Below, piece after piece: positions 3,501 to 57,514 of a DNA stretch of 64,000 nt. The position numbers were made by a program, and so were the translations under genes. This DNA comes from Hyposmocoma kahamanoa (taxonomy: Eukaryota > Arthropoda > Insecta > Lepidoptera > Cosmopterigidae). The first letter of the stretch is position 1. Each line of letters starts with the position of its first letter. The stretch covers positions 7,129,767 through 7,193,766 of the forward strand of contig NW_020654229.1 in the NCBI RefSeq assembly GCF_003589595.1. Direction: 5' to 3'. The notes beneath the pieces were generated by a model that ran no database searches, had not been told where the DNA came from, and worked only from the letters and a program-made list of their open reading frames with translations.

Positions 3501-6500
3501 CGTGAAAGATCTGTGTAAATTTATGTATAGGTTATTTCCTACTTGCCAAATATACATATTTAAAAATAAAAGAGAAAAAATAACTTCATGTTTTTGAATA
3601 AGGACTATTTCGGCCAGAACTAGCTCACATAAAGCGTGTCTCATTTTGAGTTAAGTAGATATCTTTTAGTTGTTTTTTTTACAATATTTTAACGACGGTT
3701 TTATTGACATGTAGAGAATCAAATTTTACGTTTAACAATGGTATAATCTTGAATTTCACATATTTTAAGTTATAACACTATTGTAATTGCAGTGCGATAT
3801 AATTATTATTGTACTAGTTATTAGTAAAAGTTTTGTTAAACTATCTTTTTTAATTACAAATCGATTAGTACCTTTTTTAAATATTTTCTTATGCTCACTT
3901 ATTCCACACACACGTAAATAAATTACACTTGACAACGTATTTTTTTTAGTTACTGCTCATTCATTGTGCTGACTTCCCTGAGAAGAAGAGCAAAAGACCG
4001 TAGGGATTGCTCTTTTCAAATAAACTTAAATGCTATGGAAAACCACATTTAGAGCCGCGCGGCCACCACCCGAACCTATTCCGTAACCCCGAGGGCGCGT
4101 TTCCATTATGTCATGACGACCGATAGTCGTGCAGTTTAAAGTGTCGTGGCTTGTATATTTAAATGAAGTTGTTCACATATAGCACAACACGATTAAGTGT
4201 CGTTCACGAATTTTTGACGTTACGACGACAGACTGTCGTGACAATGGGAAGAGCCAGAACGACAGTCGTCCAACGATAAATAAAATGTCACGATAAAAAT
4301 GTGACGACAGATAATCGCAGCTTCAAACGTTTCTGTCGAGCTGCCGTGAATCGATAAATTGTCGTCACGATCTAGTGTGAACAGCTAAACTCGTCTGTCG
4401 TTCAACGATAAAATAAACGTCCACGACACTGTCACGACAGATAATCGTGATATGGGAACAGGCTAGATGCGACAGTTGTCTAACGGTAAATAAAACGTCG
4501 CGTCATAATGGGAACGCGTCCTAACCCAACGTTCAACATATATAAATAATTATTCCCATTTTGTGATTGTTTCTCAGAAATTCACGAGCACGTAAAAACC
4601 ACGTGGCAAGGTTCCACAGGGAAGGCCTTCAGTGTGACCATTGTAAAAAAAGATTTGTCAACCGGACTACACTCGCCACACATCTTAGGTAAATATAATG
4701 AGAAAAAAGTAATTGTTTGAAATTTATTTCATTGAATATCATGATGTTATGATATTCAATTATTTATTGTGAAATTACCCCACTAGTTTGTTACGATTAT
4801 ATTAAGAAAAATTATACTTGACTGAGTGAAGTAAAACTTTCATAAATTTCTCACAGAGGGCGCTATGGCAAAAAGTTGTTAAAAAATTCAAAACAAAGGT
4901 CTGCAACAAGCACATACAAACATTCGTCAAGTCTACTGGTTCGTTTCATACCTCAGTTTCGAGAGCGTCAGGCACTATATGCTGAAGGCGCTGGTTTGAA
5001 TCCAATCGGACTCAAGACATTTTCCTTAACGTTCGATTTTTGTATTAATAATTTTCTATCGGATACATTTGCGAGTGTGCGCAGGAACATTTCAATTTAG
5101 TTCCACCCTCATCGTTCCTCCTTCGGTCAACTAGAAGGTCCGGAACACTCCAAACTTATGTCGTTGATATACCACAACAAAAGGAAAACCAAAGGAATGG
5201 AATACTCTAGCTGCAAATACCAGTACAATTTGGGGCTATTCAAGGCTAGAGTGTTTAGGCATATTTTAGGCAAACGCGTTCCATTGTAGGTCACATCGTC
5301 ACTTAACATCAGGTGAGATTGTGGCCAAGCGTGTGTCTATTATGCTAAATAATAATAATAATACTTCACAAGTTTGTTATTATTATTCATACAAAGATCG
5401 AACATCCAAAGGAAAATTCCTTCGTTATGGCGTGGACTGGAACCAACATTTGTTGCCACACCAGGGCCACAGCAATTAACAATTGAGCTACACATCGAAT
5501 CAGCAGATCTTACGATTTTCTCTATGGATTTGCAGATTTTAATATTGGGTTTCAACTGTTTTTTTGACGTTATTCATGGTTATTCGCATCTCTATTTCAA
5601 AGATGTTTATTGCTCAATTAGATACAGAAAAATGTAACCCACATCCTCTCCAATTCTTGTAACTCTCTCTCTCTCATCTGAGCGTTATCCCGGTTGCGTC
5701 CTCAGCAGTGTTGCTGCGGAGCCCGGGGTCCGCTTTCCTGCTTTTTCTCCTCCACTTTGCACGGTCTTCGGCATCCTTAGTGGTGAGACCATTGGCACGC
5801 ATATCACCCTTGGCGACGTCAAGCCAGCACTTCTTAGGTCTGCCCCTTCTACCGGGGCCCGGCGGAGGTGGCATAGCCAGACATTTGTTTCCCACGTAGC
5901 ATGCCGGTTTCCGTAAGATGTGGCCGTACCAACGTGGGCGACTTTCTTGCAGTTTATCTGCAATGTCACGGACGTGAAGGCTGCCGCGGATGCGGGAGTT
6001 TCTGACACGGTCTTTCCGTGAAACTCCACACATCCAGCGCAGCATCTTCATTTCCGTGACACGCAGCTCCTGCTTATGGCGCTCAAGTACGGGTCACGTT
6101 TCACTGCCATATAAAAGGACAGGCCTAATGATGGATTTATAGACCTGTCCTTTCAGCTTAACTGGCATCTTGGGGTCACAAATGACACCAGTCACCTCAC
6201 GCCACTTTGCCCAAGCGGCTGCGATTCGGGCTCTGACGTCGCAGATCCCAAGTATTTAAACTGGCCCGTAGGCTCGACCGCGTCTTCGCCTATGCGAACG
6301 GGTAGGGGATCTGTAGCGTTGCAGACCATGTACTCAGTCTTCGCCACATTTAGTCTCAGACCGCCGTTCTCAAGCGACTCCTTCCACACATTCACTCGTC
6401 GTACCAGTCTCCCTCTATCCGCATCCGCCAGCGCAATATCGTCAGCGTACATAAGCATCCACGGGGGTTGCTCATGCGTGTCTCGGATGGAGCTTGAGAC

Positions 6501-9500
6501 CTCGTCTAATATCACGCTGAACAGATAGGGACTGAGAACTGAGCCCTGGTGAACTCCGACTGTGACAGGGAAGGGTTTAGTGTCACCAACAGCAGTCCTA
6601 ACCACGGAATCGGAATCGCGGTACATGTCTCGGATGATGTCAATATAAGCTTCTGGTACCCCTTTGGATCTCAGTGCCCACCAGATCATTACACGGGGGA
6701 TACAGTCGAAGGCCTTCTGCATGTCAAGAAACATGAAATGCAGAGGCGTATTCTTCAATCTGTATTTCTCCATGATGACCCTTAGGGCAAAAACAGGATC
6801 CATGGTCCCAAGACCAGGCCGAAACCCATATTGACCCTCCGAGACAGCACTCTCCTATCGGATCCGAGAGTCTATTATACGCTCGAAGAGCTTCATGGTG
6901 TGGGACATGACCTTTATCCCCCGATAATCGCCACACTCCTGCACCGATCCCTTCCCTTTGAAGACTGGAGTGATAATACTCAGTCTCCATTGGTTAGGGA
7001 TTTTACCGGTGACGAGCACGCGATTAAAGAGGCCGGTAAGGATGCCCACACCACGGGGACCCATTGCCTTCCAGGCCTCGATGGCCAATTCTTGTAACTC
7101 TATCTACAATATTAGTTAATAGACTAATATTATATAGCATATATAATATAATAATATTGTGACTGAATAATTCATCTTTGCTTTCGTACAAAAATAGTAA
7201 TATTTAAATAGAATGTTTATAACATTGATAACTGTGCGTGGTGGGGGTCGTCGTGTAGGGAGCTTGCGCGTTTGAAATTTGAAAAGGTTGAAAACCATTA
7301 GTGTGCTGTGACCAGGATCACGGGAATAAAATAGGATCCTTCGGTCCATAAACTCGATTGTTTGAAGGAAATGAAAGGAAAAGGCCCGAAAAGGGTCGAG
7401 TTATACAGAATTACAGATTGGTATTAACATAATTGGCATATGATTTAGGTTGAATTAGTAAAAGGATCAACATTAGACGCAATTGAAAATTACAGCCTAA
7501 ACAAAATGAGGATGGCGAGGCAAAGGAATTAAAGAACGATTCAAAATTTGAAACAAGTGGCTAGGAACCAGAGAAAAGGCGATAAAAAGGTGGGATGGCG
7601 ATGTAAGGAGGTCACATTGTCACAACTTACTACTTCACTACCAAATGCATATCTAAAAAGTGTCAGATACTACAACAAAAACTTAAATGTTTCTTTTTGG
7701 CAAAGGAGTTGTTCCTTTAGTGGTACTAAAATAAATGGAAAATTAACCAGGCTATTAGTTGGTTTGTTGTAACGCTCTCAAAATCTAGAAAGTCTGAATT
7801 AAAAACAAATTATTTTTGATCTGCAATTTTCAGAAAATCGTTAGGGATTTTTAATACTATGTAAATAAAGTAAAACTGAACGCAATCCCACGAAACGGAA
7901 CGGATTTTTATGTAATTTTTGGCTAATGGGTCAGTGACCAATGCCTTAAAAAAATATTGACAGATCAGATGTCAAAGTCATTCTTGTTGCAATTTAATTA
8001 GCCAATTAGAATTTTGAATATTTTAGTGTTTAAGTGTTGCTGCTTTTTGGACTTTTTTTAGGATCGTAGTGTTGCTGGAATTAATTTAACATATGTATCT
8101 ACCACAATTTTGTTTTAAATAAATAAATAAAAAATGCAGTTCACAATATTTTTTAATTTATTTTGCTAAGCTGTTTATTTCAAGCATATATCTAGCAAAA
8201 AAATTGACTCTGGTTAAATTTTTCTGGGAATAAAGTACCAAGCTCCATACTAATTCGGTACAAGTCCTTTATTGTGTTTTGTAAGAAGCCATGGAACAAA
8301 AATTGTTGTTTATGATGGTAGTAATATCATAGTAGAATAAAACCAAGTATGGTAACTAAGTGTTTTTATTGAGTGTCAGGATGGTTCACTACCACGGTAT
8401 TAATATCGTATTAGTATCGATAATAATAATATTTTTTTTAAATTATTAATTAATTATTAATACAAAGATCGAACACTTAGAAAAAAATATTTCGATCCGG
8501 CCGGATTCGAACCGACGTCTTCTAGCAAACCGTGCTTAGACGCTATGCTAACCAAGCCACGGAACGTACCAGCGGACCTCACGAATTTTTCTATGTGTTT
8601 GCGTCGTATCTTTGTGTTCGGTTTTCAACGACTTTTTAGCCGTAGCGCCATCTATGAGAAATCTATGGAAGTATTTCGTCACCCAGTTAGGCACCTTTAC
8701 AGCTACCAGTAAGTATGGTAACTCAATATTAAATATCGCAGCGCGGCTTGTATAGTGTGGCTTTGTTGGAAGTCCATTATAGAAACGAACGAGCCGCGCG
8801 TCAATGGAACCCGCGAGCCTTTCTTATTCATTTTCTCGGAAAGGGTCCGTGGGCTCTTTGTAATTTTAAGAGGGGTCCATTACTAGGAAAAGGTTAAGAA
8901 CGCCTGTACTATGGTAGTATAGTCCAGCGAGGTCTATACTATAGCCAATGGCACGGGTCTCCTTTCAATTGAGGGTTTAGGCAATAGTCCGCCACGCTAG
9001 CCCAACGTGGGCTAGCGTGGGGTTTTGTCCAGAAGTAGCTCACAAAACGTTTGTCTCATCCTGGGTTAAGTAGATATATTTTAATGGTTTCTTACAATAT
9101 TCTAATGACAATTTTATTCACGTGTAGAGAGACAAATGTTACATTCAGAAATGGTATAATCTTGAATTTCATATATTTTGAGTTACAACACTATTGTAAC
9201 AGTAGTGCTATATATATATTTAGCTACAAGGAGTGACATAGAGTTGTTTAAACCACCAAAACCGGGTTTCCGGATGAAAATAATCCTCATTTTATTTTAT
9301 AAATGAAAATGGCATTTTGTCGTCTTGTTTAAGCGTTCGGCAGTTTTTTTTTTTAATGAAAAGTATTAAAATAATTTGTGTGTGAACATTTTCCTTTTAA
9401 AATACGACATTTCTGCTATTGATTCGAATTTATGGACATCTGTTATACTGTGTTTTTAATTTAAATAAAATATGTTAGAGCGCGATCACAACGATTGTCA

Positions 9501-31279: not shown

Positions 31280-33899
31280 TCACATATCATTGTTTGTACT
31301 ACAGTTTGAACAACTTTTAGCCTGTCTTTCCAGAGCATTTAGACGCTTTTGCATATGCATTATAGTTGCATCTTTCTGCTTCAACTTCATTTTCAGAGTC
31401 GTTATCGAGTCTTCCAACGCTCCATACACCGCTTGAACCTCAGGTTGGTAGCTAAAAACCTGAGGTGGTTCATCGAGACAGAAAAACTCCCTTACAACCG
31501 GGTGGTTGGGCAATTTACTCAATATAGCATTAACAAAAATTTGCAACCCCCTTACTCGTTCTTCCAAGAACGCTGGTTCAAAGTTATCCCTAAACCATCG
31601 CTTACCTGGTAATGGTAACATTAAGTTAGGCTGTTCGGATTTTATACGTGAGTATAAGCGAACAAAATCTGTATATCGGCGGAATACTAACCAAGACTGG
31701 TCGCGTTTATCATCTTCAACTTTTAACTTGTATATAGTGAAGCGAGCTCGTTCCTCCATGACCTCATAACCTACGATAGGTATTTGTAGTGAGTCGAATT
31801 TCTTTATCTCTTCACTGTGGAGGCTTAAATCTATATTGCTTATACTATTTGGTACATTCACGTTGCAGTTGAAATCCTTTCTATAACTTTCAGTGATGCT
31901 GCCCATGCTCTTGTAATGGCTTCTCGATTGAATCGGGTTTGGTTTTCTCGGTTCGGGGATCTCGTTGTCCGATGCTGCTGATTCTGAGGATAAAATAACA
32001 ATGGTAACTGGCTGAGTGATGAAGTAGATTTCTCACAGATGGCTCTACGACCAAAAAGTCGTTAAAAATCCAAAAATAAAGATCTGCAACAAGCATATCG
32101 AAAAATTCGTAGAGTCCGCTAGTTCGTTTCGTGGCCTAGTTAGCATAGCGTCTGACACGGTTTGCTGGAAGACGTTGGTTCGAATCCAGCCGGGTCGAAG
32201 GAATATTTTCTTAGTATTCGATCTCTATTTAACTGCCTCCGTGGCCGAACGGTTACCATGCCGGACTGCCACGGAGAGGTCCCGGGTTCGAATCCTGGGC
32301 CGGGAGAAATAGTTGTATGGCCTACAATTATTTCTCTCGTGAGTTTGGGTGTAATTTGTGGTTGTCTATGTGTGTGTCCATGGCACCCGCGACACAGGGT
32401 TTCCCTAGTGCGGGGCTATGTTGAGTGTGTGCGTTATTTATTATTATTATTTCATATATATTCGATCTAAAACATTTACCAGCTTCAAATAATATTTTGT
32501 TTAAAATTACTGTCGCTTTTCTGTGTTTATTATTTGTAGTATTTCGACTAAACGAATATGAAATACATTAAAAAAACAAAAAAAAAAACGTATTTTAATG
32601 TTATTTGCTAGAGTAAAAATGTTTCTTATTTAATTGCCTCCGTGGCCGAACGGTTACCATGCCCGACTGCCACGCAGAGGTCCCGGGTTCGAATCCTGGG
32701 CCGGGAGAAATAGTTGTATGGCCTACAATTATTTCTCTCGTGAGTTTGGGTGTAATTTGTGGTTGTCTATGTGTGTGTCCATGGCACCCGCGACCCAGGG
32801 TTTCCTTAGTGCGGGGCTATGTTGAGTGTGTGCGTTATTTATTTATTTAATTTGTTCAGTTAACAGCACATCAAGCTGAATTCACTTTTGTTCGAATATT
32901 CCCTGTAAACCAACGGAACTAGATCCTTCCTACCGTACCTTTTATTTACTAGTCTTCTTGGTAGTAGGTTTCAAGCGATATTTATTCATTTATTGAGCAT
33001 TGGGTAAGATATAGTCGTGGATCGTAGATGGGTATGATAGAGTCGTTAGCTTAAAAAGGTAACAAATGTTTATGAAACTCAAAACGTGAATATTAATTAA
33101 AATATTAATACCTGCAAAAGCTGTTACTACAAAGACCTGCAATATTTTTTCGGTTTACAAGTGTTTTTTTTTCGAGAAAAAAACAGTAGTTTTTTCACAA
33201 TAAGGAACACGTGAGTGCCAATTAACAAGAAAAAAAAAAACAAATTAAAGCTCTAAGAAAAGCAACTAGGCATTAGTGAACTTCACCAATATAATACGAT
33301 AATAATAAAACTTCAACTCTCAACACATTAACAAATAAAAAATACATTACATCTAGAGTTTAGCAACAGACAATATTTACTGGTGGGAAATATAAAGGTA
33401 GCTCAACAAAATGGCGGACTGTAGCTTAGCAAAATGGCGGAGTGTTTCTCAGCGCCTCTAATATACATATAAACGTATTCAATAAATAACTTAAGAATTA
33501 TTTATTGTATACGCTTGACTATAACAGTAACACGTTATAGTCAAGCCAAGTTATGCTTTACTGCTACTTCGGTGTTAACATTAATAAATGCTCAGAAGAA
33601 AAGCCAATCCTTAATTTGTTTTTTTTTTTTTCATGTCATAAAAGTAGTTTAATCATATGTGACTTTATTATACCAAGACTAAGATTGTCAATTTCATTCA
33701 TCTGTCAAATTTGAAATTTTAAAAACGGTCGTCTCTCACCATTTGAATACCGTTGTTTGTAAAAGTTGTTGAATTTTGCGACTGGGTCGGTATTTGGTGT
33801 GCCTTCGCTGGACGATGACGTTCCATTGTTAAAGTTTTGTCGTTGATGAGATTTTTCTCCATTTGTTCGCACCGAAATTGAGTTCTGTACTTTCTCCAT
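31280..33899 (-). CDS. Snx16: Sorting nexin 16-like protein (PX domain)
   Basis: Endosomal membrane protein of the SNX family; the PX domain binds phosphatidylinositol 3-phosphate on early or late endosomes. Coding exons on the minus strand are 33899-33740 and 31983-31280 (TGA at 31282-31280), joined in phase through a GTGAGA donor and a TTATCCTCAG acceptor to give 287 residues. The N-terminal 120 residues are polar and low-complexity. The PX domain covers about 121-227, with the phosphoinositide-binding VFRRYTDFVRL, the proline loop LMLPLPGKRW and the LEERVRGLQIFV helix. A coiled coil of about 30 residues follows (LKMKLKQKDATIMHMQKRL), as in SNX16. The start was chosen at AAAATGG shortly after a TTTTCAG acceptor; the frame is open upstream, so an earlier start is possible. 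The intron holds three SINEs. Confidence 0.88.
32010..32215 (+). mobile_element. Composite SINE (family 2)
   Basis: TTTCTCACAGATGGCTCTACGACC, AAAAAGTCGTTAAAAA, tRNA-like part (GTGGCCTAGTTAGCATAGCG and the B box GGTTCGAATCC) and a tail ending TATTCGATCTCTATTT. It lies in the SNX16 intron, antisense to the gene. Confidence 0.75.
32230..32451 (+). mobile_element. tRNA-derived SINE (family 1), copy 1
   Basis: The head reads TGGCCGAACGGTTACCATGCC (A box) and GGGTTCGAATCC (B box), in a 75-base tRNA-like fold. The unrelated body follows (GAAATAGTTGTATGGCC, GTGTGTCCATGGCACCCGCG) and then a TTATTATTATT tail. Nearly identical to the copy at 32630. Confidence 0.9.
32630..32855 (+). mobile_element. tRNA-derived SINE (family 1), copy 2
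   Basis: Same layout as copy 1, 180 bases downstream and in the same orientation, differing at only a few positions in the shared 200 bases; tail TTATTTATTTA. The two may reflect separate recent insertions or a local duplication. Confidence 0.9.
33514..33545. repeat. Short perfect hairpin
   Basis: CTTGACTATAAC and GTTATAGTCAAG flank an 8-base loop in the SNX16 intron. Confidence 0.6.
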
Positions 33900-52139: not shown

Positions 52140-52430
52140 AAGCGACACTGCGTCAGTTGTGGTACCTGTAAAAGTATCGGCTGCGGTGAGGTTTTTAAAA
52201 AAATCTCTCACTAGAAGTCACTAGTGGCGACGGATGCCGAAAACCACTACAAAAAACAGGAAAATTTCGACAGCACGGTATTTGGACTCGTAGCTCAGTT
52301 GGTAAAGAGTAATGCTACGGTGTAGCGTGGACGTGGGTTCAAGTCCCACGAGGTCGACGAAAAAAACATTTTTTCTGTGTTCGCACTTTGTATTCATAAT
52401 TATAACAAAACTAGTTAAATGTAGTAAAGA
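52140..52430 (+). mobile_element. tRNA-derived SINE (family 2 relative)
   Basis: A 5' block (TCTCTCACTAGAAG, GCGACGGATGCCG) precedes a tRNA-like part at about 52286-52358 with the A box TAGCTCAGTTGG and the B box GGTTCAAGTCC; the tail is TGTTCGCACTTTGTATTCATAATTATAAC. The acceptor and anticodon stems do not pair well, so it is a SINE head and not a working tRNA gene. Confidence 0.75.
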
Positions 52431-53335: not shown

Positions 53336-54372
53336 TATATATATTTTTTTTATGTAAAGGAGGCAAACAAGCAGACGACTCTCTTGATGGGAGATGGTCA
53401 TTGTCGCCCAAGGACATTTGCAACATCAGATGAGCTGCCTATGCGTTGCTAGCCTTTGAGAACCCTGTCAACACGCTTTTTGAAGAACCCCATGTCATAG
53501 CGCAAAGAAAATACTTCAGGAGGAAGTCATTCCACATCTTGCAGGTTCGAGGAAGGAACGAACGAGATGCCAGGCATCTAAGATGTGGGGATGGACTCTA
53601 CTCCTTTGGCGGGAGGTGTGATGATGGAAACGAGACGGTGGCACCAGTTCGGAAAGTTCCTCAGTGCACTCCCCATTGTAAAGACAGTAAAACACGCTCA
53701 GAGAGCCAACGTCTCTCCATAGGCTAAGGGGATCCATACCGTCTGCGCGTTTGTGACCATCGACAATTCCAACAGCCCTACGTTGGATGGAGTCAAGTGG
53801 GTCAATCTGGTATTTCGGAGCTCCTGCTAAGAGATGCCAGTAATACTCCATAAGGGGCCGTACTTGTGTTTTATACAACAACAGTCGGTGACCTAGTGAT
53901 AAATACTGCTTCGCTCTATTGAGCACTCCGAGATTTTTGGAAGCCAGTTTGGCTTTGCTCTCTAAAGGACCCCGGAATTGGACTTAGAGATGGTAAGGAC
54001 AAAAGGGTAAAAATGTTCTAGAACTTAGGCGCTATTACAAACGGGTATTTTTTAGCGGTGAACGCGTGTCTTTGCGGGGTTAAATTTGACAAGATTCTAT
54101 CGACCCCATTCTGAGACCTGCTCCAAAGAAGTCTCGATTTTGGACACAAGTTGCAATCTATTTTGTTCCACTTGCTGGTATATATTTGTGCGACCTGTAT
54201 AATAGACATCACTGGTACTGTCATCCGTATAGCAATGAATGTTACTAGTTAATAACATATCATTGATATGCAGGATGAACAAGGTTGGCGATAGCACAGA
54301 TCCTTGCGGAACGTCGGGGTTAATGAGCATGGTGTCCGAGCACAAACCGTCCACACCGACTTTTAAGCTCCG

Positions 54373-57278
54373 CACGGTGATTCACGCTCCATACTAAGGC
54401 GGTCATAAATACGTAACTCCGAAATTATTATTATTTTTTTATTTTATTACGTTAAAATATGATTAGGTAAACGTAAATTAATAAAATTATACATTTTAAA
54501 AAATATTTGACAATATTTAGGTGTAAAAATGTCTCGCAGTAATTTTGTTTTTAGACGATGTATCTAAAACATTTTATACTGCGACTTTTAATGGTAAAAC
54601 TGTGTAAATAATGATTATTTGTATTAACAATAACCACAAATGAATAAATTAAAACAATAAAAATACATAAAAAAGTTCATTTTACAAAATACAAACAAAA
54701 CACAAATTATACCAAAATACATTAAATCTCAACAATATTAACTTTAAATACATAACAAGTCTAATACAGCTTTTGACAGTACACCTTTTTTTTTAACAGG
54801 TAACTTTCGTAGACCTGTTATGAAGGGATCTGAATGAAGAAGCAGCCTATTTACTAAATCTGTGTTGGTCACAATGCGACTCATTTTACGCGTATGATTT
54901 TTTCTAAAAGACTTGATGTATTTGTTAGTCGCTTCAGCTGCTTCTTCAGACAACTCTCCGATTGACAACAAACCGTAATCTATAACATTAGCACCATGAA
55001 TTAGAACTTTGTGAACGGAAGCAGGCATGTTATACCACGGATACTCGGCAACTAACTGCCGAGCCGTCTCTAAAGCGAACTCTTCGAAGTTCGTCTTATT
55101 AATATTATATCCCGAATTTAAACATTGAAGGATGATCCAGCAACGATCTAGGAGATCCTTCTTGATCCCAGTAATTTCAGCGGAAATTTCTGAATTCGAG
55201 AAAAACCGCCTGGCTGTATTACCATCGTTTGATGTTCCGCTTCCGCCACTTTTAGGCTTATCCACTATAAGCCCTAATCTTTCTCTAAATTGAGTCTGAA
55301 CATATGATTTTTTTGCAGCAACAAGCATTTTGTCATTAGCGGACCTAGCTTGCCATTTCCTAACATCTAACTTGTACGCGACATGAACAAAATATTCAAA
55401 AAAACGTATTAACGCGTGAAGAGGTGATAAACCAAATTCATATTTACTCTCATCGACTTCCTTATTTAAACATTCGTCAATTTTGTTCATTTCACTGGGC
55501 AAGGCGTTACAAATAAAACATTTTGATGAAGAAACACCACTAAGTGCATTACACACTTTACCATCTACCATAGTAAGTTGCAAACAATGAGTAATGCGAT
55601 ATTCGCGATCTTCTTCCTTGAAAACAGTAGGCTGCAAGTTCCTTATTTTATCTTTAAAATGAGCTTCTTCCTCAACTGACACTGCAGTCGATTCCTTCAA
55701 ATATCGGAGGCGTATAGGACGACAGTATCGAGTTGATGAAGGACGAGGATTTTTCCACAAAACTACTGAATTTTCTTTGTTATCTGTTGTCAAAACAAGC
55801 TGAAGTGGCACATACGAAGTAACAAACAGGCTACTGTCTTCAAGAGTGGAGTCAGAAAAACACTGTTTATATTCTGAATGCCCTGTACTGCCATCGAAAC
55901 CCCATTTCCCTATCAAAGATATCTTATCTAGAGACTCATTAGGTACACTATCCAAAACATCTTTTTGAGACTTGAGAATCCGATTGGCAGTATGATCTAA
56001 TAAACTTTGAAGTTCGACTTCGGCGGATGATTCTGTAACAGTAATATCTGAAGGATAACAGTGTTTTTTAGATTCCACGACACTTTGGTAAGATGGGAAA
56101 ATGGTTTTTGAAAACTTATTGTCTATAAATTTCTTTACTAATATATATTGATGTCGAGTTAACTGAGCTTCAACAATGAGCGATAAAACTTCGCTAGAAT
56201 CGATTTCAGGACAAGACAAGCTATCGGACGCATTGAGCAATGACTGTACAAGAGAAGGGTCTTGGTTAGACAAACTAGCCAATCTTCTCCTTTTTGTACG
56301 TTTACTGGTGTCGTCAAAGTTAATTCTCGGACGGCCATGCGATGAAGAAGTTGATGGTTTAACTTCGTCAAAGCTCTGAGATACACGTAACTCAGTTCGC
56401 TGTACATCAATATTTTCAACGACATGCAGCCAATCTGAATATTTTTCTAAGAATTTAGATCTAGTACGATTCGACTTTGCCCAGTAGTGGGAAATTCGTT
56501 TACAAATATTCTTAATTTTAAGGCTTAAAGTCTCTAAATCAATATTTTCGATGTCGTCAGAAAGGGATGATGTTTCGGTCAAAGTGCTCAGGACGTGTTG
56601 CATTTTTTCATTTGGATTACCCACTTTAGAGTGCCAAATATCAAAAATTGTCATCCTCGATACAGAACATTTGAAAAATGTACCTAAAACAATATGAAAG
56701 CTGAACTTAAAAAAAAATTAATAATTCAATACTATGGACATGCATACTTTGACACCCCTTTAAGCCAAGAAGAGGCAGCAAGATGCAAATGAAACTTATA
56801 GCTCTTAATAAGGACATACTCCTTATTCAAAAACCATATACGTCAGGTGCAGCTCAGCGCAGCCAAAAGTTGTAGGTCTAAAGGAAATTAAGTTATGCCA
56901 AAAATTTTCACCAAAAAACTGCCTTCAATAAAAAAATTATATAAAAAAAATATGCATAAAAAAAATTAAAAAAAAAATTGATAATAAAAGTACATACCAT
57001 GCTCTTGGATCTCCATGCTTTCACAACACGTAAACACTTGATTTGGAATAGTGACACTCAAAAACAAAGTGATTAAGTTTCGATGACTCACACGTGGTGA
57101 TAATTAGTCTCGCGATGCGCTCACTTCCGATGCACAAAAGTGAATGATAACGTGACCTAATTACATTGATATTTATAGTTTTTGGAAGCTTGTTAACTAG
57201 TTACTAACTTAGTGAGTTGATCTAACCGGGATAAGCCAATGATTTTTTTGATTTATGGCCTATGGGGGAATCACAGTG
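54373..57278 (-). mobile_element. Transib DNA transposon, complete (2906 bp)
   Basis: Ends read inward CACGGTGATTC (54373) and CACTGTGATTCC (57278), followed by diverged CCATA, GGC and CATAAAT blocks shared by both ends. Exact 5-bp target duplication CTCCG at 54368-54372 and 57279-57283, GC-rich as usual for Transib. The first seven bases resemble the heptamer of V(D)J recombination signals (CACAGTG), in line with the known kinship of Transib and RAG. The one gene inside is the transposase. Confidence 0.92.
54744..57016 (-). CDS. Transib transposase (RAG1-related), intact frame
   Basis: Cut-and-paste transposase of the RAG1/Transib family. A 636-codon open frame (56654-54744) is uninterrupted. 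A short first exon 57016-56998 (MEIQEH), donor GTATGT and acceptor TTGTTTTAG would extend it to 652 residues: exons 57016-56998 and 56683-54744. In the longer numbering I see KWGFDGSTGHSEYKQ with aspartate 270 (matches RAG1 D600 region), MVDGKVCN with D380 (D708 region), the zinc pair CFIC at 395/398 with HKVLIH H564/H569, WQARSANDK, KPKSGGSGTSNDGNTARRFF, and LSEEAAEATNK with the third acidic residue (E962 region). The assignments come from motif order and are not a computed alignment. A basic stretch KRTKRRR may be a nuclear signal. No stop or frameshift, so it could be active. Confidence 0.93.
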
Positions 57279-57514
57279 CTCCGGTCAGACGGGAAGCTAG
57301 CGATCCAAGTGCACAGCCCTTTTGGAAGCCCGTAAGATGGTAGCTTCGATAGAAGTGCCTTGTGCCAGACCCGATCCAAAGCCTTAGCGATGTCTAAGCT
57401 CACGGCCATTGCTTCTCCCTTGCTCTCGATGGCAGCTACTCATTAGTTCGTGAGATATGCAAGAAGATCACCAGCACTATGGCCGCGGCTATATTAATAA
57501 GAGATGGTTAGTGT

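Follow-up and report, generated by a model that had tools for sequence, protein, structure and literature searches.

HzTransib from Helicoverpa zea, a biochemically active transposon represented in the PDB by 6pqn and other entries, is a close relative of the element described here. Its catalytic triad was assigned to D126, D225, and E436 (PMC6941560), and its ends, according to the description in PMC8289069, are symmetric, resemble the heptamer, and show little if any nonamer. HzTransib is the best-studied Transib but, because its ends are described as symmetric and as lacking a clear nonamer (PMC8289069), it cannot be used to test the use of unequal spacers by a Transib transposase. Asymmetry of the 12/23 ± 1 type is attributed to Transib5 of Drosophila melanogaster and to Transib2 and N1-N3 of Anopheles gambiae in PMC8355894, which cites Kapitonov and Jurka 2005 and presents the hypothesis that the V(D)J loci were seeded by a Transib whose ends were 12/23-like. 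In the description of Transibs given in PMC9435367, a nonamer-binding domain (NBD) containing a GRP motif is reported, and the members of Subgroup II lack the RAG2-binding α11-α12 region, carry a CTT2 tail, and have ends of both the symmetric and the asymmetric types. Asymmetric Transibs and a Transib NBD are therefore already published, and the value of the locus analyzed here is that of an intact test case.

Structure of the element

The preliminary description of the window, i.e., the whole stretch of 64,000 nucleotides of Hyposmocoma kahamanoa DNA analyzed here, had reported CACGGTG and CACTGTG termini, an exact CTCCG target duplication, and an uninterrupted 636-codon frame containing the GFDG, MVDGK, and LSEEAAE regions in addition to CxxC and HxxxxH. 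All of these features were recovered (Table 1). The duplication flanks both termini, the frame contains no internal stop, and the putative zinc ligands are C379, C382, H548, and H553. Both termini begin with a CAC heptamer resembling those of RSSs, as found in Transibs. A scan of the interior of the element (54373-57278) revealed just two frames of at least 80 codons, the transposase and one 88-codon antisense frame, and no second frame of the size of RAG2. The element therefore displays the Transib organization of one RAG1-like gene without a RAG2-like gene. Identity with the RAGL (ProtoRAG) transposons was rejected on this basis. These transposons are similar in having a RAG1-like transposase, 5-bp duplications and, in some of them, asymmetric ends, but they carry a RAG2-like gene beside the RAG1-like gene.

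Table 1. Coordinates, in the window, of the features of the Transib element
Feature	Position	Strand	Basis
Complete Transib element, 2906 bp	54373-57278	-	Ends, frame, duplications, copy comparison
Target-site duplication CTCCG, left	54368-54372	+	Sequence
Target-site duplication CTCCG, right	57279-57283	+	Sequence
Heptamer-like CACGGTG, 3' end of the element, downstream of the transposase	54373-54379	+	Sequence
Heptamer-like CACTGTG, 5' end of the element (read inward, 57278-57272)	57272-57278	-	Sequence
Nonamer-like GGTCATAAAT, positions 29-38 of the 3' end; C at 32; 23-bp spacer in the RSS register	54401-54410	+	
Nonamer-like GGCCATAAAT, positions 19-28 of the 5' end; C at 22; 13-bp spacer in the RSS register	57251-57260	-	
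RAG1-like DDE transposase frame, 636 codons including stop	54744-56654	-	ORF scan, homology, fold
Predicted exon 1, coding part, ATGGAGATCCAAGAGCATG	56998-57016	-	Splice-site consensus
Predicted intron, 314 bp, GTATGT...TTTTAG	56684-56997	-	Splice-site consensus
Predicted exon 2 of the transposase	54744-56683	-	Splice consensus and N-terminal homology (inference)
GRPR motif, codons 107-110, candidate NBD	56325-56336	-	Alignment, profile
Catalytic D254 codon	55893-55895	-	Alignment
Catalytic D364 codon	55563-55565	-	Alignment
Catalytic E574 codon	54933-54935	-	Alignment

The element is inserted in an apparent non-LTR reverse transcriptase, recognized by eye in the minus-strand frames 54097-54375 and 53516-53926. 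The window also contains a 220-codon open stretch (6192-6854, minus strand) that appears by eye to encode a reverse transcriptase, an exon of sorting nexin-16 (31280-32032, minus strand) whose best named relatives are all from Lepidoptera (about 84%; best match, 93%), and a weak tRNA-Thr prediction (52283-52358; ARAGORN, Rfam 32.4 bits), which is perhaps the head of a SINE.

Transposase

The transposase matched the sequence of HzTransib (E value, 2.7e-114) and, by profile, RAG1L (1.7e-13) and RAG1 (about 1e-8); it matched no NCBIfam family. The predicted fold agrees with that of a RAG1-like transposase, in a comparison that covers mostly residues 148 to 620, and structural alignment with vertebrate RAG1 revealed about 16% identity. 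Across an alignment comprising 39 rows, D254, C379, C382, H548, H553, and E574 were identical in all rows, whereas the position of D364 was occupied by Asp in 36 rows and by Asn in the remaining 3, corresponding to homologs P0031, P0036, and P0046, in which the second catalytic Asp is thus replaced. Residues D254, D364, and E574 align with D126, D225, and E436 of HzTransib. Alignment with the Transib and RAG1 cores, which had been suggested as a check, therefore placed the acidic residues inside the core, and the assignment to Transib and RAG1 was borne out by the sequence, the predicted fold, and the published triad of HzTransib. Together, the sequence, profile, fold, and 39-row alignment identify a RAG1-like DDE transposase. 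The element is an asymmetric and intact Transib, of a kind already present in the literature. The end-to-end alignment of its core with that of HzTransib makes it likely that the Subgroup II feature is present.

The N-terminal region is longer than that of HzTransib, since about 128 additional residues, including GRPR, precede the first catalytic Asp (residue 254 versus residue 126); the chain in the HzTransib crystal matches only from position 145 of the profile. The GRP motif, at residues 107 to 109, was found in 34 of the 39 aligned rows, and the profile is collinear, albeit weakly (11.5 bits; i-Evalue, 0.63), with the region of mouse RAG1 that contains GGRPR. The structure model has low confidence at residues 89 to 108. 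This region is treated as a candidate NBD.

The transposase groups in the tree with proteins of 86% and 79% identity. Among the best 120 of 1032 matches, nine had an assigned organism, all of them insects other than moths. Copies transferred from the host to viruses, or present in prokaryotes, were also considered: in the viral and genome contigs, from collections that may leave out records resembling those of the host genome, pattern matches with the alignment were obtained but no tblastn relative.

Copies of the element in the genome

Near-identical copies, the search for which had been proposed in the preliminary description, proved to be numerous and mostly to have intact frames, rather than being only old and damaged. 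Full-length rows at 99 to 100% identity numbered 69 in the 728-Mb genome; 63 of these contained no stop, and the top score was reached by 18. The 50 best-scoring rows were fetched, leaving 19 aside, and the frame was intact in 45 of these copies. Both ends were readable in 42 copies, the remaining 8 lacking a readable end and being excluded from the duplication count. All 42 copies had distinct 20-bp flanks on each side, and exact 5-bp duplications were present in 41 of them, a result far exceeding chance. Exact duplications were likewise found in all four copies sampled later for which both ends were read, a fifth place from the later sampling containing a 293-bp fragment only. The 5-bp duplications of Transibs were thus exact in 45 of 46 copies (42 + 2 + 2). 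The sole exception, L045, has CACGC on the left and GCACG on the right, off by one base, as would result from the gain of a single nucleotide at the junction. The duplications have the consensus CRNYG, i.e., C(A/G)N(T/C)G, the first position being C in 38 and the fifth being G in 36 of the 41 duplications. Near-identical copies with exact duplications support the recent activity that had been proposed for the element.

The 5' end was found at 133 genomic places with two mismatches or fewer, versus none for the control, and the first 100 places listed were exact. Among these 100 places, inspection by eye revealed no 5'/5' element, and 5' ends in opposite orientations were never closer than about 149 kb. 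No swarm of MITEs was seen in this genome-wide count, which covered the 5' end alone. Sequence capture was considered for the four of the 50 copies without a normal 5' part and was rejected, as these copies share no captured gene: L013 is cut at the start of a contig, the 5' part of L027 consists of N, and L016 and L022 continue into DNA unrelated to the element. Changes in the frame of the 50 copies comprised 53 nonsynonymous and 34 synonymous changes, versus 2.74 under neutrality, a ratio that is not interpretable as selection because the copies were chosen by protein score.

Other Transib families and phylogeny

A beetle Transib used as the query revealed further Transib families in the same genome. 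Fourteen diverged copies with flanks were examined, and an end pair was found in 12 of them by a rule that considered the duplication and the 14 terminal bases, and not the inner motif; candidates C359 and C2615 had no end pair by these criteria. The 12 copies define eight families, designated B to I, with three copies each for B and C and one each for D, E, F, G, H, and I. The duplication was mismatched at one position in one of the 12 copies (C1519 of family B; GGACG/CGACG). This moth hence harbors at least eight Transib families (loci L051-L090) in addition to that of the window. Copies within families B and C are >98% alike at their ends, and several families have therefore been recently mobile.

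The protein of family E is 62.6% identical to that of the window over 489 residues. Both belong to a 22-row clade (100/100) that also contains Drosophila and hoverfly proteins, including the Transib proteins of Drosophila ananassae (57%) and D. yakuba (51%), whereas symmetric families B, C, D, H, and I are grouped in a separate clade (100/100); F and G lie apart from these. The tree gives no branching order among E, the Drosophila rows, and the subclade of the window. The matches outside moths and the separate clade formed by five resident families are at most suggestive of horizontal transfer.

Spacing of the inner motif

A second sequence shared by the two ends, CATAAAT, had been proposed as a possible nonamer-like transposase site. 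The heptanucleotide is indeed present in both ends, but its sharing was not significant alone (P = 0.075 with shuffles and P = 0.09 with random pairs of windows), and support came only from the comparison of nine families. In seven of these (B, C, D, F, G, H, and I), all 14 ends contained CAWAA with C at position 31, 32, or 33. A second CAWAA was present in 4 of these 14 symmetric ends, at position 20 in the 3' end of C and both ends of I (C3, I3, and I5) and at position 39 in the 5' end of C (C5). A-rich words near position 20 are thus not unique to ends with short spacers. The CAWAA at 20, located about 12 bp inside the heptamer, is a possible source of short spacers.

A scoring matrix was built from the 14 ends, excluding the window family, with the CAWAA nearest to position 32 as the anchor; C3, I5, I3, and C5 each have one at exactly 32. 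The matrix assigned 11.5 bits to C32 in the 3' end of the window family and 12.3 bits to C22 in its 5' end, where the next best place scored -1.4 (P = 0.00095 by shuffling). Family E displayed the same polarity, with C33 in the 3' end and C23 in the 5' end, the short spacer being on the side of the transposase start; scores were weaker, 6.6 bits at each end (P = 0.039 for the 5' end), for the single, damaged copy of this family. In the RSS nonamer, ACAAAAACC, C is at position 32 with a 23-bp spacer. The ends thus form a 13/23-like pair, rather than a 12/23 pair, with spacings unequal by about one turn of DNA, as in asymmetric Transibs. The idea of a nonamer is consequently supported by these sequence comparisons and also refined, since they reveal a 10-bp asymmetry not mentioned in the earlier reading. 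The simplest reading is that the shift would be older than the split between the window family and family E.

Alternative interpretations

The ends could be effectively symmetric if the true 5' site were the A-run at C29 (TCAAAAAAAT, positions 28 to 37), close to the usual 31 to 33, and the CATAAAT at C22 were due to chance. The P values for the shared heptanucleotide (0.075 to 0.09) leave room for such a coincidence, AAAAAAATC at spacer 22 of the 5' end matches the vertebrate nonamer at 7 of 9 positions, and symmetric ends are reported for most Transib families in PMC8289069. However, the C29 site is not preceded by GG and scores only -1.4 bits with the matrix derived from the other families, and family E repeats the 10-bp shift, with the sole CAWAA of its 5' end at 23. 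We therefore consider symmetry unlikely and retain the 13/23-like pair. An equally unlikely proposal is that the 636-codon frame is the entire protein, with no spliced exon. The frame does begin with an ATG, and P0002, P0003, and P0005 are among the relatives that start at the same point, but such coincident starts are mechanical or automatic. Residues immediately preceding the ATG of the window (FKCSVSRM) are conserved in P0007 (LKCSFNRM), P0026 (QKCVFPRL), and P0029 (RQCIFSRL), which read upstream of the ATG exactly to the predicted acceptor. The donor CATG/GTATGT (after 56998) and the acceptor TTTTAG/GT (before 56683) place the ATG at 57016 in frame, and both splice-site strings are exact in 39 of the 50 copies. 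The predicted splicing yields 652 residues, including 16 additional residues (MEIQEHGTFFKCSVSR). The 636-codon frame is thus probably an incomplete protein from which a short upstream exon is missing.

Whether the family represents a finished burst, with young copies whose transposition has stopped, is evenly balanced. Divergence was analyzed in 40 copies, 10 of the 50 having been dropped owing to truncation or long indels. Outside indels, 112 of the 115 variable sites were singletons, and the number of changes per copy had a variance (2.51) close to its mean (2.95), as expected from few sources and a short time. This star-shaped, Poisson-like divergence fits a single burst that has since slowed and speaks against transposition having proceeded over many generations from copies already altered. 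A moth-like mutation rate is about 2.9e-9. At this rate, the noncoding divergence of 1.26e-3 per site per copy corresponds to a burst of up to some 4e5 generations ago, an age that is possibly inflated because assembly errors add singletons. Against a complete arrest, one copy, L007, had no change at the scored sites, and the sample was restricted to the best-scoring rows, less the dropped copies.

Discussion

The element is very probably an autonomous cut-and-paste Transib of a moth, with unequal spacing of its inner motifs and putative 13/23 pairing, belonging to a family that arose from one recent burst. In the proposed mechanism, the transposase would include the short upstream exon; its core would bind the heptamer, and a RAG1-like NBD would recognize the A-rich motif. 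By analogy with HzTransib and RAG, the flanks would then be nicked and hairpinned. Synapsis would join one end with a 13-bp spacer and one end with a 23-bp spacer, resembling the pairing of 12/23 signals.

The element differs from HzTransib, whose ends are symmetric by description, in its asymmetric nonamer-like pair. Spacer asymmetry between the ends is common to this element and to the fly and mosquito Transibs described previously; compared with these by description, it is distinguished by its 13/23 spacers, its intact frame, and the young age of its family. The D. ananassae and D. yakuba elements, from fly rather than moth hosts, are predicted to share the asymmetry of the ends. Relative to vertebrate RAG1 and its 12/23 signals, the element has no RAG2-like gene, and its short spacer is of 13 rather than 12 bp.

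It is possible, though we regard it as rather doubtful, that the clade follows a true 12/23-like rule in which the NBD reads the motif at 13/23 and pairing is restricted to unlike ends, one 5' and one 3'. If so, a transposase consisting of one protein and lacking RAG2 would display an asymmetry of one DNA turn, and V(D)J recombination would owe its 12/23 rule to a property of transposons that either existed beforehand or evolved repeatedly. The question addressed is the origin of the 12/23 rule in the assembly of antibody genes. For this question, the window offers an intact, recently mobile Transib combining unequal ends with a candidate NBD, and the symmetric families of the same genome provide natural controls.
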